DNA of 64,000 bases, from positions 1,286,501 through 1,350,500 of the forward strand of contig NZ_CP061336.1 of NCBI RefSeq assembly GCF_005473905.2, given 5' to 3'. The notes below the pieces were generated by a model that saw nothing but the letters and a program-made list of their open reading frames with translations, had not been told where the DNA came from and did not search any database. Source of the DNA: Ruminiclostridium herbifermentans (GTDB taxonomy: Bacteria > Bacillota > Clostridia > Acetivibrionales > DSM-1351). Of the stretch, positions 10,561 to 62,763 are shown piece after piece (the first letter of the stretch is position 1; every line of letters starts with the position of its first letter). Made by a program: the position numbers and the translations under genes.

Positions 10561-11526
10561 ATGGATACTTTATATTATTTAATACAAAATACGCTTCCGG
10601 TTGCCATCCCTTTACTATTGGTGGCACTGGGCGGTATGTTCAGTGAACGCAGTGGTGTAATTAATATAGCGCTGGAAGGTATAATGTTATTTGGTGCATT
10701 TTTTGGCTGCTTATGTGTTTTCTTTATACAGGATACTGCAATTAATGCGCAGTTAATGCTGCTTATCGGTATGATTATTGCAGCAGTTGGAGGCTTTATT
10801 TATTCGATGCTGTTGTCAATTGCGGCTGTAAATTTGAAAGCAGACCAGACAATTAGTGGAACAGCTCTTAATATGCTGATTCCAGCTATTATACTTCTAT
10901 TTTCTAAAATGTTTTTTAACAGTGACGGTATAACAACGGATGTGAATTTTTACATTAAAAAAGTTCCTGTACTAGGTGACATACCTGTTATTGGTAAAAT
11001 GTTGTTCCAAAATACTTATATTACTGTGTATATAGGAATTGTCGCACTTATTATATCCACTATTGTGTTTTATAAAACAAAGTTTGGCTTGCGCCTTCGT
11101 GCATGTGGTGAACATCCTCATGCAGCTGACTCGGTTGGTATAAATGTTTATTTTATGCGCCATGCTGGTGTGGGTATTTCTGGAATACTTGGCGGCACTG
11201 GAGGATTTTTCTACGCAGTAGGTGTAATGAATGGCAATGCAAATGGTCATACAGGTGTTGCAGGATTTGGATTTCTTGCACTTGCAGTAATGATATTCGG
11301 ACAATGGAAGCCAATTAAAATAATGTTTGCAGCTTTGTTCTTTGCATTTCTGAGAACCATAGCTTATTCTGTTTCGCTAATTCCATTTTTGTCGGCATTG
11401 AATATAAATAGTACTTTTTATAAGATGCTTCCATATATCGCAACTATGGTTGTACTTGCGTTTACATCGAAAAGGTCAAGAGCGCCTAAAGCAGAGGGCA
11501 TACCTTATGATAAGGGGTTAAGATAG
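10561..11526 (+). CDS. Nucleoside-type ABC transporter permease (NupQ-like)
   Basis: Second membrane subunit (about 321 residues, BPD_transp_2 superfamily). Features: GGMFSERSGVINIALEGIMLFGA near the N-terminus, which is characteristic of this permease class, the ATPase-contact loop GLRLRACGEHPHAADSVGIN near residue 180, and about eight helices. AGGG at 10550-10553 is one base before ATG 10555 but seven before ATG 10561, so I prefer the latter. This ribosome site is weak compared with the unused one at ~10390. It completes the binding protein, ATPase and two-permease set. Confidence 0.88.
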   Translation: MDTLYYLIQNTLPVAIPLLLVALGGMFSERSGVINIALEGIMLFGAFFGCLCVFFIQDTAINAQLMLLIGMIIAAVGGFIYSMLLSIAAVNLKADQTISGTALNMLIPAIILLFSKMFFNSDGITTDVNFYIKKVPVLGDIPVIGKMLFQNTYITVYIGIVALIISTIVFYKTKFGLRLRACGEHPHAADSVGINVYFMRHAGVGISGILGGTGGFFYAVGVMNGNANGHTGVAGFGFLALAVMIFGQWKPIKIMFAALFFAFLRTIAYSVSLIPFLSALNINSTFYKMLPYIATMVVLAFTSKRSRAPKAEGIPYDKGLR

Positions 11527-11769: not shown

Positions 11770-12138
11770 TAGCTATAGATAATAGATATAAAATGGACAA
11801 AATAGATTATAAGAGTGGTGTTTGAAAATAGCGAATGTGTTGTATTTTGTTTAGATTAATTAACGCTTAACGCTAATTATTTATTAACCTTGTGGGTAAA
11901 AATAATAGTACTGTTATGCTTCCGTACAAGTAACACTAAGGGTAACATAATAGTACTGAGTATACTTGTACTTCCGTACAAACTTATCTAAATGTGTACT
12001 TACAAGATATTTGTTGAATTAGTATTGGTTCAGAATAATTAATTATACCGTCAAACTTATTTCAAAATAATTAGCATAACGAGCTAAATTAGCATTTGTA
12101 AATACATTAACATTTAAAAATATGAAAGGAACAGCGAT
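11770..12138 (+). repeat. Long engB leader with duplicated short hairpin sequence
   Basis: No gene is seen. ATAATAGTACTG occurs near 11906 and 11949, and CTTCCGTACAA near 11921 and 11971. The second is part of a small hairpin, TTGTAC-TTCC-GTACAA. A diverged relative, TTGTAC-TCGC-GTAC, occurs at about 14743 after a similar TTATCTAA, and both places are followed some 70-80 bases later by a stretch resembling ACGAG[CT]TAAATT. Function unknown; it could be a decayed dispersed repeat or a leader fold. Confidence 0.4.
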
Positions 12139-12804
12139 ATGATAATAAAAAATGCAGAACATGAAATTACAGCTGTAAAGCCAAATCAATATCCGGTTAC
12201 AGGGTTTCCAGAGGTTGCTTTTGTGGGCAGATCAAATGTGGGAAAGTCCTCAATAATTAATACCTTGTTAAATAGAAAAAATCTTGCAAGAGTGGGTCAA
12301 ACGCCGGGCAAAACAAGACAAATTAATTTTTTTGCTGTAAATGGTAATTTTTACTTAGTAGATTTGCCAGGCTATGGCTTTGCAAATGTATCAAAGGAAA
12401 TGAAGGCTTCTTGGGAAAAAATAATTGAAACCTATTTGTATTCAAGAAGACAAAATCAACTTAAGTTAGTAGTAATGCTTGTGGATATCAGACATTCACC
12501 CAGCAAAGACGATATAGTAATGTATCAATGGATTAAGGGATATGGAATGAATTCAATTATTGTTGCTACGAAGGCTGATAAAATAACCCGATCCCAAATA
12601 AATATCAGGCTCAATGATATCAGAAAGGTGCTTCAGTTGGATAAATCAACTAAAATTATACCTTTTTCCTCTGAGAAAAGAACAGGTAGAGAGGAAGTTC
12701 TTGAGGAGATAGGCAGAAGTTTGTTTGGGGATGAAACAGCTGTAGAGCAATCAGCAGCGGGAGATGTAAAAAAAGAAGGTGCAGACAAAACCGGTCAAGG
12801 GTGA
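12139..12804 (+). CDS. engB: Ribosome biogenesis GTPase YsxC/EngB
   Basis: Essential GTPase needed for assembly of the 50S ribosomal subunit. G1 GRSNVGKSS is near residue 30, the G2 threonine region TPGKTRQINF near 55, G3 DLPGYGFA near 75 and G4 TKADK near 144. The conserved core ends near residue 196; the remaining ~25 residues are a charged tail. AAAGGA precedes ATG 12139. The frame stops at TGA 12802-12804 but remains open for 46 more codons, so the ancestral protein was probably about 268 residues with an acidic tail (see next entry). The core is complete, so function should be kept. Confidence 0.93.
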   Translation: MIIKNAEHEITAVKPNQYPVTGFPEVAFVGRSNVGKSSIINTLLNRKNLARVGQTPGKTRQINFFAVNGNFYLVDLPGYGFANVSKEMKASWEKIIETYLYSRRQNQLKLVVMLVDIRHSPSKDDIVMYQWIKGYGMNSIIVATKADKITRSQINIRLNDIRKVLQLDKSTKIIPFSSEKRTGREEVLEEIGRSLFGDETAVEQSAAGDVKKEGADKTGQG

Positions 12805-14257: not shown

Positions 14258-14396
14258 GCTAAATGTTGGTTCATTTTAGTTATTTATGGCGCCGAATACA
14301 CTAAACATATATGCTTCATTGTTTTGTGGGGCTGATGTAAAGTAAAAGTAGCTGTATACTGATGTCTTATTGCAAAAAATATTACTAAGTAGAAAA

Positions 14397-14640
14397 ATAT
14401 ATCTAGTTGCTAAGCTTGGTTAGAAATTGAAGCTAGAAATAGTAGGTGAACAACAAGTATTGTAGCCGACACAGCGAAAAAAAATAGCTGTGAGTATTAA
14501 CCCGAGACAAGGTGTCTTGGTTAAACGTTCGGTGGAAGTGCTTGTTCTTCACCTTAATTATTTTAGAGTCAATTTCGTGAGCGAGCCATAGATATATATT
14601 GCATGGGAGTACTATTTGAGCAGTTTACTTTTGATATATA
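14397..14640 (+). ncRNA. Structured non-coding RNA candidate, copy A
   Basis: This ~244-base stretch matches the minus strand of 57795-58038 at roughly four of five positions by eye, and neither has a coding frame. Paired elements shared by both: outer arm ATCTA..TTGC with its partner near 14585; GAAATTGA (14423) with TCAATTTC (14568); GGTGAACAACAAG with CTTGTTCTTCACC (14541); hairpin CACAGC/GCTGTG (14470 and 14487) with unlike loops in the two copies; and GCCGA near 14465 pairing with TCGGT near 14529. The core GAGTATTAACCCGAGACA is identical in both. It lies between the DUF445 gene and reverse rubrerythrin. I could not assign a known family; the raiA-type clostridial RNA is one candidate to test. 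Confidence 0.65.
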
Positions 14641-15042
14641 TATTATTTTTTGTTTTGCAACAGCACTCAGTAGAATCAACTATTATTCTTCACTTACAAA
14701 TTTAAGCAAATATCTTTAACCAAGTAACCCATTTATCTAAGTTGTACTCGCGTACCAGTATAAGGAATAAGTAGTTATCTACAAACTCAGTTTAATATAA
14801 ACTAGTACAACGAGTTAAATTTTCTAAATTAACTATAGCGATTAATATTGCTAAACTCAAAGTGTCTCATTTTTCAAGGGTTTATTTTCAAAATAGCAAA
14901 AATAGCACTTTTTAAAATTAATTTGTTTTAAACTTTTCCTCCGTGGTATATATATTACTGTCGCTGCTAAACCATTTAGTTAGCGGCTGAGAAAACATTA
15001 AAGTACATAAAATTATATAAATTATAGGAGGATTTTGGTATT
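14641..15042 (+). promoter_or_regulatory. Reverse rubrerythrin upstream region: promoter, hairpin and PerR-like box
   Basis: TTGTTT (14923-14928) and TATATA (14947-14952), 18 bases apart, form a promoter candidate. The following leader holds an imperfect hairpin at about 14955-14990 (GCTGCTAAAC with GTTAGCGGC). TTATATAAATTATAG at 15013-15027 matches 11 of the 14 fixed positions of the PerR box (TTATAAT-N-ATTATAA), next to the ribosome site. PerR control of rubrerythrins is known in clostridia; this site is only a candidate. The part at 14641-14850 is AT-rich with one weak relative of the engB-leader hairpin. Confidence 0.4.
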
Positions 15043-57713: not shown

Positions 57714-57794
57714 TTGAGAAATGCTGATTAATATATTAGAAGGATTGTAAAACAGCATTTTCTGTATGCCCTAGTTTTACTAAAAAAGAAATAG

Positions 57795-58038
57795 TATATA
57801 TCAATAGTAAACTGATTAAATAGTACTCCCGTGCAGTATTATCTATTGCTCGCTCCCGAAATTGATGCCGAAATAATTACGGTGCAGAACAAGCACTTCC
57901 GCCGACCGTATAACACAAGGCATCCTGTCTCGGGTTAATACTCACAGCTACTGACTTCCGCTGTGTCGGCTGCAATATTTGTTCTCCACCTACTATTTCT
58001 AGCATCAATTTCTACCGAGTTTCGCAATTAGATATATA
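57795..58038 (-). ncRNA. Structured non-coding RNA candidate, copy B
   Basis: Minus-strand counterpart of 14397-14640. Its pairings are more regular than in copy A: GAAATTGATGCT with GGCATCAATTTC (12 pairs, one G-U), ATCTA..TTGC with GCAATAGAT, GTGGAGAACAA with TTGTTCTGCAC, hairpin CACAGC/GCTGTG, and GCCGAC with GTCGGC. Between the copies, the last becomes GCCGA with TCGGT, so G-C becomes G-U and the pair is kept. On the minus strand, TTATTA and TATTAT with 17 bases between lie just upstream, a possible promoter. A bidirectional terminator lies 82 bases downstream. It separates the two convergent halves of the acyl cluster. Confidence 0.65.
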
Positions 58039-58128
58039 ATACACTCGAATACAATTTTTAATAAGTTATCGGTATACATAAAATGTTGTTTTGCAACTGC
58101 TTTTTGCTTTATATTCCATTAAACAGGA

Positions 58129-59583
58129 TTAATATTCACATCCATCAATAAGTTCATCCTTAATTTTATTAAGCAGCATATCAATATTTTCTTTGCTGAC
58201 TGTACCTTTATAATATCCTGCAGCAAGTGTTAAAACAGAATTATAGGTGCATGCCATCAATAAAAGGCCTGGTGCACGGATAGCTGGAGGCAGAAGATAG
58301 CAATCTATTACAGACCGACTGCCAAACTTAATTAGTGATTTTGAGATACAGCCTAAATTAGATAGGGTAGGAACGCATTTATCACCACAATAAATAGGAC
58401 AATATTTTTGCGAATTCTTAGTTTCCTGCCAAGCTTGATAATAAGCAAGTGTTTCTTGATATTTCAGCTTTTCTATACGTTCAAGACCAAGAGCACTTTG
58501 GAGTCCAGGATATCCTTGCTTAATTTCCTTCATCACATCAGAAACTCTCTGTAAGGTTTCATTGAATGGCTCGTTCATCGTCATTGTGAGTTTGGTACTT
58601 ACTGAACCAGAAAAATTCCTTATTGCCTGCGTTTTGTGGTTAGGCAGGTAACGGCGTAAGTCAACTGTAATTGGGATTTCCATAGGAAGTCCATAAATTG
58701 GTTGGCCCATTTTAAGCATAGCCCTATAGTATGCAGTTAGAATGAAATCATTAACTGTTACCCCTTTGCTTTTGGAACATTTATTTATTACATCAATATA
58801 GCCATGTGGAAATCTGAGAATAGACATACGTGCTATGTTTGAACTGCACGATTCCCAGGGAAATGACCACATAGGTATGGATATGTCAGACCCTGGTAAA
58901 AATAATGAATCTTGATTTGTAATTCCTAGTTCTGAGAACAATCTATCTTGATCCTTTCTGCCTGCGATTCTGGGCACAGGTATATAAGCTCCATTATCAT
59001 GCTCGATTTTATTGTATATGTCAGAAAGCAATTGAATATACTCCAAAGTGCCTAAACCGTCACAGCAAGCATGATTTATTTTTAAACCAATAACATCATA
59101 GTCCTCGCAGCGCATTAGTTTAATATTCAACATAGGATCATTATCTATGTCAAAAGTACTTTGAATAAAATTTGATATGGATTGGTCTATATCGTTAGTT
59201 TCCTCAAGTGAAAGGAACTTGATTATTCCGATATTATCTAAAGGCTTCCAATAGGGTTTAGTATCTTCTATAAATCGGCATTTAAAAACAGGTTCTGTCT
59301 CTATTGATAATTTTACTGCCTGCTTTAATTTATACAAATCTACTTTTCCGTCTAATTTTAAAATTGCTTGAATTTGGAGATTAGAGGTGTTGTAACGTGC
59401 TACATAATTATAAATGTCATGACCATTAGCAGGAAAAGTGCCTTTAGTTTCTGTTGCCCTATTAGGGAAATTGTAAGCAGACATAAAATTTTCAAACATT
59501 TTACCACAATATTTATAATAATTAGCTATGCTATCAACGGTTTTGTTATAAAAATCTATATTGTATTTGAACAGATCATTCAT
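58129..59583 (-). CDS. Condensation-superfamily acyltransferase, paralogue 3
   Basis: 484 residues; catalytic HACCDG at His171-Asp175. Other family motifs: GVTVNDFILTAYYRAMLKMG, PITVDLRRYLPNHKTQAIRN, PTLSNLGCISKSLIKFGSRS and PPAIRAPGLLLMACTYNSVL. GGAGG and TTAAT precede the ATG ending at 59583; the TTG four codons earlier overlaps that site and is not preferred. It is more diverged from paralogues 1 and 2 than they are from each other. Transcribed on the minus strand downstream of the thioesterase gene. Confidence 0.83.
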   Translation of the reverse strand: MNDLFKYNIDFYNKTVDSIANYYKYCGKMFENFMSAYNFPNRATETKGTFPANGHDIYNYVARYNTSNLQIQAILKLDGKVDLYKLKQAVKLSIETEPVFKCRFIEDTKPYWKPLDNIGIIKFLSLEETNDIDQSISNFIQSTFDIDNDPMLNIKLMRCEDYDVIGLKINHACCDGLGTLEYIQLLSDIYNKIEHDNGAYIPVPRIAGRKDQDRLFSELGITNQDSLFLPGSDISIPMWSFPWESCSSNIARMSILRFPHGYIDVINKCSKSKGVTVNDFILTAYYRAMLKMGQPIYGLPMEIPITVDLRRYLPNHKTQAIRNFSGSVSTKLTMTMNEPFNETLQRVSDVMKEIKQGYPGLQSALGLERIEKLKYQETLAYYQAWQETKNSQKYCPIYCGDKCVPTLSNLGCISKSLIKFGSRSVIDCYLLPPAIRAPGLLLMACTYNSVLTLAAGYYKGTVSKENIDMLLNKIKDELIDGCEY

Positions 59584-59859
59584 ATTAACCTCCAAGCCTC
59601 ATTTTAGAGCAAAGTTTAGGAAAGCTTTTTTGATAACCTTTGCTCCCTTTGAGGTATGCTATCTTTTTTATAGTACTATTTTAGATACACAATCAAAGCC
59701 ACTGTGTTTATGTGGCTTGAAAATGTACTGTTGCTTCAGAAAATTACTCAAAAATGCAAAGATTATAAATGTACGACATGTAACTTTGCGTTCTCATGTT
59801 CTAGGCTAAAAATGTGCCTTAAATTATTTTTAAATGATTTTTAGTGGCTTTAAATGGTC

Positions 59860-62690: not shown

Positions 62691-62763
62691 GGGACTGCTG
62701 CAAATCAAAAATTTATGTATACTGATAACTTTTTGACAAAAACTACGCGAGTGCAGCAACCCC
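62691..62763 (-). terminator. Long-loop hairpin after hcpR
   Basis: On the minus strand GGGGTTGCTGCA pairs with TGCAGCAGTCCC (two G-U) around a ~49-base loop, followed by TTATTCTTTC. It lies 18 bases after the hcpR stop; probably the first of two stops. Confidence 0.45.

Follow-up and report, generated by a model that had tools for sequence, protein, structure and literature searches.

Two related stretches of Ruminiclostridium herbifermentans DNA are probably decayed copies of a palindromic, stem-loop-replacing MITE of the IS1182 type

Results

Repeated sequences in the window

The window is the whole stretch of 64,000 nucleotides that was analysed (Ruminiclostridium herbifermentans, contig NZ_CP061336.1, positions 1,286,501 to 1,350,500). 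An earlier note had proposed that it holds two copies of a structured RNA of about 244 nt, trans-acting or mobile rather than a leader tied to one gene. Comparison by blastn of positions 14397-14640 (+) with the reverse complement of positions 57795-58038 confirmed that the two stretches align from end to end (query 1-244), with 85% identity over 244 bp and an E value of 1.2e-72. They share an identical core, GAGTATTAACCCGAGACA, and have unlike loops between the same CACAGC and GCTGTG arms, both as described in the note. Each stretch is the inner part of a near-complete palindrome of about 335 bp, referred to below as copies A and B of the type-2 element (Table 1), so that the unit is longer than proposed. 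The predicted folding energy of the full element was -105.6 kcal/mol for copy A (z -6.9) and -102.0 kcal/mol for copy B (z -6.6), and each was more stable than all of its 100 shuffles.

Table 1. Coordinates of the repeated elements in the window and of the nested copies in the genome
Feature	Position	Strand	Evidence
Copy A, whole type-2 MITE	14330..14666	+	HMM match 3-335, E 1.4e-95; alignment of 40 copies
Terminal inverted repeat at the 3' end of copy A, GTGCTGTTGCAAAACAA, with one mismatch relative to that of the family	14650..14666	-	Pattern search
Left half of R2, an older palindrome that hosts the nested copy A	14264..14324	+	R2 HMM positions 70-130
Right half of R2	14668..14766	+	R2 HMM positions 159-254; empty-site comparison
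Copy B, second type-2 MITE, 3' terminal repeat decayed	57770..58102 (start approximate)	-	HMM 4-324 at 58100-57782, E 8.6e-97
5' terminal repeat of copy B	58086-58102	-	Pattern search
Probable 73-bp internal-deletion derivative with facing ends GGGACTGCTGCA ... TGCAGCAACCCC	62691..62763	+	Terminal-repeat match, 3 mismatches
Five nested copies with clear junctions	Contig positions 1300830 (= copy A), 1948106, 2076597, 2360597, 2526058		

The terminal-repeat pattern matched the window three times when 0.15 matches were expected. The 5' sequence of the probable 73-bp derivative resembles that of the type-2 element, and this derivative gave no match to the type-2 HMM at an E value of 10. Another fragment of R2 (HMM positions 6-99, E 3.3e-21) lies at positions 11957-12058, between a reading frame ending at 11526 and one starting at 12139. 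The end of a 488-aa reading frame at positions 58129-59595 (-), which partially matches a Condensation domain (PF00668, E 1.7e-11), lies 27 bases ahead of copy B. No known Rfam family was recognized: a scan of the window with Rfam 15 gave no match at or above the gathering threshold, and near the copies the permissive scan gave sub-threshold matches only (best E values of 0.41 and 0.95).

Extent, ends and copy number of the element

Alignment of 40 oriented copies showed that homology continues past the 244 bases, out to the inverted repeats GGCTGTTGCAAAACAA ... TTGTTTTGCAACAGCC, and that the whole element is bounded by terminal inverted repeats (GGGGCTGTTGCAAAACAA...). Its consensus was predicted to fold as a single hairpin of 125 pairs with a branched tip (-153 kcal/mol). 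The element is far from limited to the two copies first noticed. An 18-base core pattern allowing up to three mismatches was found at 62 places in the genome, a single contig of 4,817,678 bp, 30 on the forward and 32 on the reverse strand (0 and 1, respectively, for the reversed-pattern control), and blastn with copy A gave at least 40 large matches, counted among the best 40 of 118 candidates. The HMM of the whole element found 76 places in the genome stretches fetched, a number that includes fragments yet is probably a lower bound, since blastn scored 40 of the 118 candidates. The core was spanned by 63 of these 76 places and 37 were near full length (19 of the 37 on the + strand), and none of the 76 overlapped a reading frame of at least 200 aa by more than 60 bp.

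The end motif was found 38 times with up to two mismatches (control, 0), and 30 pairs of facing ends were found with up to six mismatches in all. Shorter elements with the same ends measure from 46 to 169 bp, with one more of 275 bp, and look like internal-deletion derivatives. Conservation among 29 full-length copies was roughly even, from 0.78 to 0.93 per 15-base block. A better conservation of the core than of the ends was considered and rejected, the effect being largely one of truncated copies and of the choice of copies by their core. At the loop between CACAGC and GCTGTG and at the arm by TAGTAC, a few alternative alleles recur among type-2 copies in mixed combinations, a pattern that hints at exchange between copies or at arm switching.

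Relatives of the element and a probable IS1182-family partner

When the 244-nt core was compared with 100 genomes, including this genome and ten others of the genus, only this genome gave a match at an E value of 1e-6. The end motif was present in all 11 genomes of the genus, with a reversed-pattern control of 0-1 per strand. Among 20 stretches of sister species taken at end motifs, eight held hairpins of 36-44 bp, four held elements of 131-165 bp and four held palindromes of 303-310 bp, while the other four had no clear end pair. The palindromes of about 305 bp are related to the type-2 element and have the same ends. Several of the 36-44-bp hairpins are followed by T-rich sequence and lie close behind reading frames. 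The end motif is also carried by Ruminiclostridium papyrosolvens C7, whose contig gave a match to the R2 model.

A search with PF01609 revealed transposases of 534 aa in sister species, and ten copies of a complete insertion sequence (IS) of 1,870-1,874 bp were delimited in four sister genomes. The left end of this IS is GGGGCTGTTGCA, 12 bases identical to the MITE ends, in nine of the ten copies, with one mismatch in the tenth; the right end, AGTTTTGCGACACTCCC in all ten, is less similar to the MITE ends. The transposase scored 390.6 bits against the NCBIfam IS1182 model NF033551, whose cut-off is 270, and full-length matches above this cut-off were found in five of the 11 genomes of the genus. 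The genome of R. herbifermentans gave no match to NF033551 or to PF01609, and those of its stretches that were examined showed no transposase between end motifs. Loss of the autonomous partner is common for old MITEs. The missing partner weakens the assignment to IS1182-type MITEs without excluding it.

The IS copies are flanked by A-rich sequence on the left and T-rich sequence on the right. Complementarity between the two flanks extended over 11-12 bases in two of the ten copies (L214 and L215), was partial in a third (L210) and was unclear in the other seven. All ten copies (L209:604-2473 and nine more) have at their left end a palindrome of 47 bp with a T after it, which resembles the stand-alone hairpins of 36-44 bp of the genus.

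The whole element matched nothing in plasmids and phages by distant blastn. A 20-base core pattern was absent from a collection of genome contigs that possibly leaves out this genome or very near ones, and the 18-base core pattern was found in three stretches of viral contigs, none of which gave a match to the model of the element or to that of R2.

Nesting in R2 and loss of stem-loops

On its right side, copy A is flanked by a further repeat, R2, which is another long palindrome. R2 resembles the element of about 305 bp of sister species over 44-60 bases and, by profile, is also similar to the reverse complement of the type-2 element. The intact R2 sequence reads ...CATTGTTTCG CTAAAACCTACATCGTGTAGGTTTTACGG TAGAATTAAC..., and the stem-loop of about 27 nt between the R2 halves was kept in eight of the 11 aligned R2 copies of this genome and in one element of a sister species; the remaining three copies were truncated or altered at this position. 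Nine nested candidates were listed, and in the five with both junctions clear (Table 1) the type-2 element is present and the stem-loop is absent. Four of these five have the same orientation relative to R2 and one has the opposite orientation, and they could possibly have arisen by repeated insertion or by a single nesting event later copied as a composite. Loss of a stem-loop was assessed at the R2-nested sites, for which the intact R2 copies provide the empty state.

No target duplication was found in 30 copies (best z of 2.66 among 1,089 combinations), a comparison whose power is limited by the age of the copies. Complementarity between the flanks in this genome was weak, with 6.5 of 12 bases compared to 6.0 (permutation p 0.013).

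Position of the element relative to genes

According to a simple reading-frame caller, the gaps occupied by the element are convergent in 15 cases, divergent in 5 and tandem in 53, compared to 4, 8 and 26 for the other gaps of the same stretches. Convergent gaps were favoured over divergent ones (15:5 vs 4:8, Fisher p 0.03), and the comparison of divergent gaps with all the rest gave a p value of 0.058. In tandem gaps the element was closer to the upstream stop codon in 40 of 53 cases (Wilcoxon p 3.6e-5), with median distances of 97 bp on that side and 287 bp on the other. The strand of the element showed no preference with respect to tandem neighbour genes (agreement in 30 of 53, p 0.41). A scan for terminators had no hit at copy A; close to copy B it had two, both of them outside the element.

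The position behind stop codons and the loss of stem-loops in the nested copies fit the published stem-loop-replacing transposition of IS1272, a member of the IS1182 family. As described in the available excerpts, IS1272 targets inverted repeats or terminators, the stem-loop is lost, no duplication is made and one hairpin can receive repeated hits, in both orientations (PMC5678879, PMC4923244).

Changes in the stems and strand asymmetry

Selection on the fold of an RNA would be expected to tolerate C>T and A>G changes in the stems, which give G-U pairs, better than the opposite changes, G>A and T>C. The rare stem changes showed no such preference, with ratios of G-U-keeping to G-U-breaking changes of 30:35 at frequencies up to 3%, 96:88 at 5% and 177:177 at 10%. 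The same classes of changes in the 84 unpaired columns (16:9, 21:25 and 41:58, respectively) did not differ from those in the stems (p 0.16, 0.51 and 0.14). Strictly private double changes numbered three when 2.3 were expected. Because the rare stem changes are without a G-U-keeping preference, RNA-level selection after insertion is not supported.

Commoner alleles behaved differently. The ratio of kept to broken pairing in stems was 337:290 at 20% and 446:305 at 50%, compared to 95:152 and 201:290 in unpaired columns, so that stems favoured pairing more (p 5e-5 and 2e-10, values that are too strong since the commoner-allele counts repeat shared ancestral changes). Compensated double changes numbered 98, compared to 51 +/- 6 in shuffles and to a mean of 43.7 (maximum 55) with slid pairings. 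At 5%, 22 double changes were seen when 10.4 were expected, and five of the twelve compensated ones came from one divergent copy. With commoner alleles included, paired changes were above chance; the strictly private ones showed no excess. Paired changes could also arise without RNA, by template switching from one arm of a DNA hairpin to the other. Since the commoner changes favour kept pairing, we conclude that the moving lineage preserved its fold-back structure, for DNA-level or RNA-level reasons that are inseparable here, and that the structure is free to decay once a copy is inserted.

In 28 of 31 near-full copies the more stable fold was that of the same strand. Nine G-U pairs stand against two A-C mismatches in the consensus, and eight purine-purine mismatches against no pyrimidine-pyrimidine ones. 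In the R2 consensus and in L190 and L196, which face the opposite way, the reverse strand was more stable; L191, which faces like the type-2 element, agreed and L198 gave a tie, so that one homologous strand is mostly favoured. Inherited composition may be the cause of this asymmetry.

Discussion

The observation that started this analysis holds, but it fell short of the full length of the unit and of the number of its copies. With a probability that we put at roughly 85%, copies A and B belong, in decayed form, to a multicopy MITE of about 335 bp that is specific to this species, was mobilised by an IS1182-family transposase and replaces stem-loops. Mobility, one of the two possibilities raised at the outset, is supported by the ends shared with an IS1182-family insertion sequence and by the replacement of stem-loops, and so is the view that these sequences are not a leader tied to one gene. 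In this reading the element is non-autonomous, an imperfect palindrome over almost all of its length, and was most likely moved in trans by an IS1182-family DDE transposase recognising ends that start with GGGGCTGTTGCA, and we infer that such a transposase moved the present copies. Insertion would remove the stem-loop of the target, the element taking its place without target duplication. This stem-loop would often be a terminator-like hairpin behind a gene, many targets probably being terminators, and the inserted hairpin may itself stop transcription.

The other possibility raised at the outset was a trans-acting RNA. This would be a family of structured non-coding RNAs that multiplied through duplication and were retained because their fold was under selection. 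The strong folding of both copies, the excess of compensated double changes, the tendency of older stem changes to keep pairing and the better folding of the same strand in most near-full copies speak for it. They are outweighed by the evenness of the rare stem changes, which behave like those in unpaired columns, by private double changes at expectation, by the indifference of the element to the strand of tandem genes, by the lack of an Rfam match, by transposon ends with a matching IS and by the position of the element in place of stem-loops, and we give this explanation scarcely any credence. Terminators or 3'-end protectors recruited by the host, REP-like hairpins whose mobility is incidental, would agree with the location of the element close behind stop codons and in convergent rather than divergent gaps, and with the minimal hairpins of sister species, several of them followed by T-rich sequence. 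The same location is nevertheless expected from the targeting of terminators or from the removal of insertions in promoters; the scans found no terminator at copies A and B, and full-length copies decay evenly, with nothing to suggest that a function was retained. Such a host role as the main explanation is very unlikely.

A MITE of another IS family, such as IS6 or IS1595, was also weighed. CTGTTGCAAA resembles IS6-family ends, and this genome has three matches to PF13610 (IS6-type), all with stops. An IS6-type origin was rejected, the stretches around these matches having no such ends within four mismatches, and so was an IS1595-type origin, PF12762 matching in none of the 11 genomes. No target duplication was found, and the ends equal those of the IS1182-family element over their first 12 bases, which leaves another IS family with a negligible probability.

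The reading as an IS1182-type MITE has points against it. The complementarity of flanks expected around a replaced hairpin is weak in this genome and clear in only two of ten sister IS copies, the scans gave no terminator-like site at copies A and B, the nested copies may stem from a single nesting event, and the resemblance seen between the MITE and the IS concerns the ends and not the inner sequence of the MITE. A plain MITE does not explain the paired changes between older sublineages or the strand asymmetry. An extended version, which we consider unlikely, is that the palindrome replaces terminator hairpins, supplies a new hairpin, reshapes transcript ends genome-wide and, being a hairpin, is preferentially targeted by related elements, while one strand may be favoured as RNA in the mobile lineage. 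If true, a strand favoured in this way would explain both the strand asymmetry and the compensated changes of sublineages.

MITEs associated with IS1182 are already in print, as far as the available parts of these sources go (PMC11578231, PMC3852290). MITEPye1 of Paracoccus yeei is, in the excerpts available, associated with IS1182, non-coding and found mostly between genes, with IS1182-family-like ends and folding into long stem-loops, as here; however, it has 1-3 copies per chromosome and direct repeats, while here the core occurs at 62 or more places and direct repeats were not found (PMC11578231). The MITEs assigned to ISMac2 of Methanosarcina acetivorans are likewise non-coding with IS1182-family-like ends, but are given in the accessible part of the source as 160 and 169 bp long, compared to about 335 bp here (PMC3852290). 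Correia/NEMIS, ERIC and RUP elements are described, in the portion available, as intergenic and present in many copies, with terminal repeats and predicted long stem-loop transcripts, like the element studied here; they are shorter than 200 bp and most are TA-ended with target duplications, in contrast to its greater length, GGGG ends and lack of duplication (PMC2229807). IS1272 and TnSha1, according to the excerpts, also replace stem-loops without target duplication, but are autonomous or composite and staphylococcal, while here a palindrome without genes nests in its own older relatives (PMC5678879, PMC4923244). The literature on MITEs in Ruminiclostridium and Clostridium cellulolyticum, judged by the titles listed, gave nothing relevant, and none was found that joins IS1272, the inverted repeat and a MITE. 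What sets the proposed stem-loop-replacing MITE of the IS1182 type apart is a palindrome that spans its full length, together with its copy number, its nesting and the lack of a partner in its genome.

This assignment removes a false lead, palindromic MITEs being able to mimic structured RNA families through conserved stems, variable loops and apparent covariation, and the ratio of G-U-keeping to G-U-breaking changes among rare stem alleles provides a cheap test to separate a MITE from an RNA family. It extends the stem-loop-replacing mode of the IS1182 family, reported for staphylococci in the available excerpts (PMC5678879, PMC4923244), to another genus and to a MITE, and shows the same hairpin both intact and replaced within a single genome.
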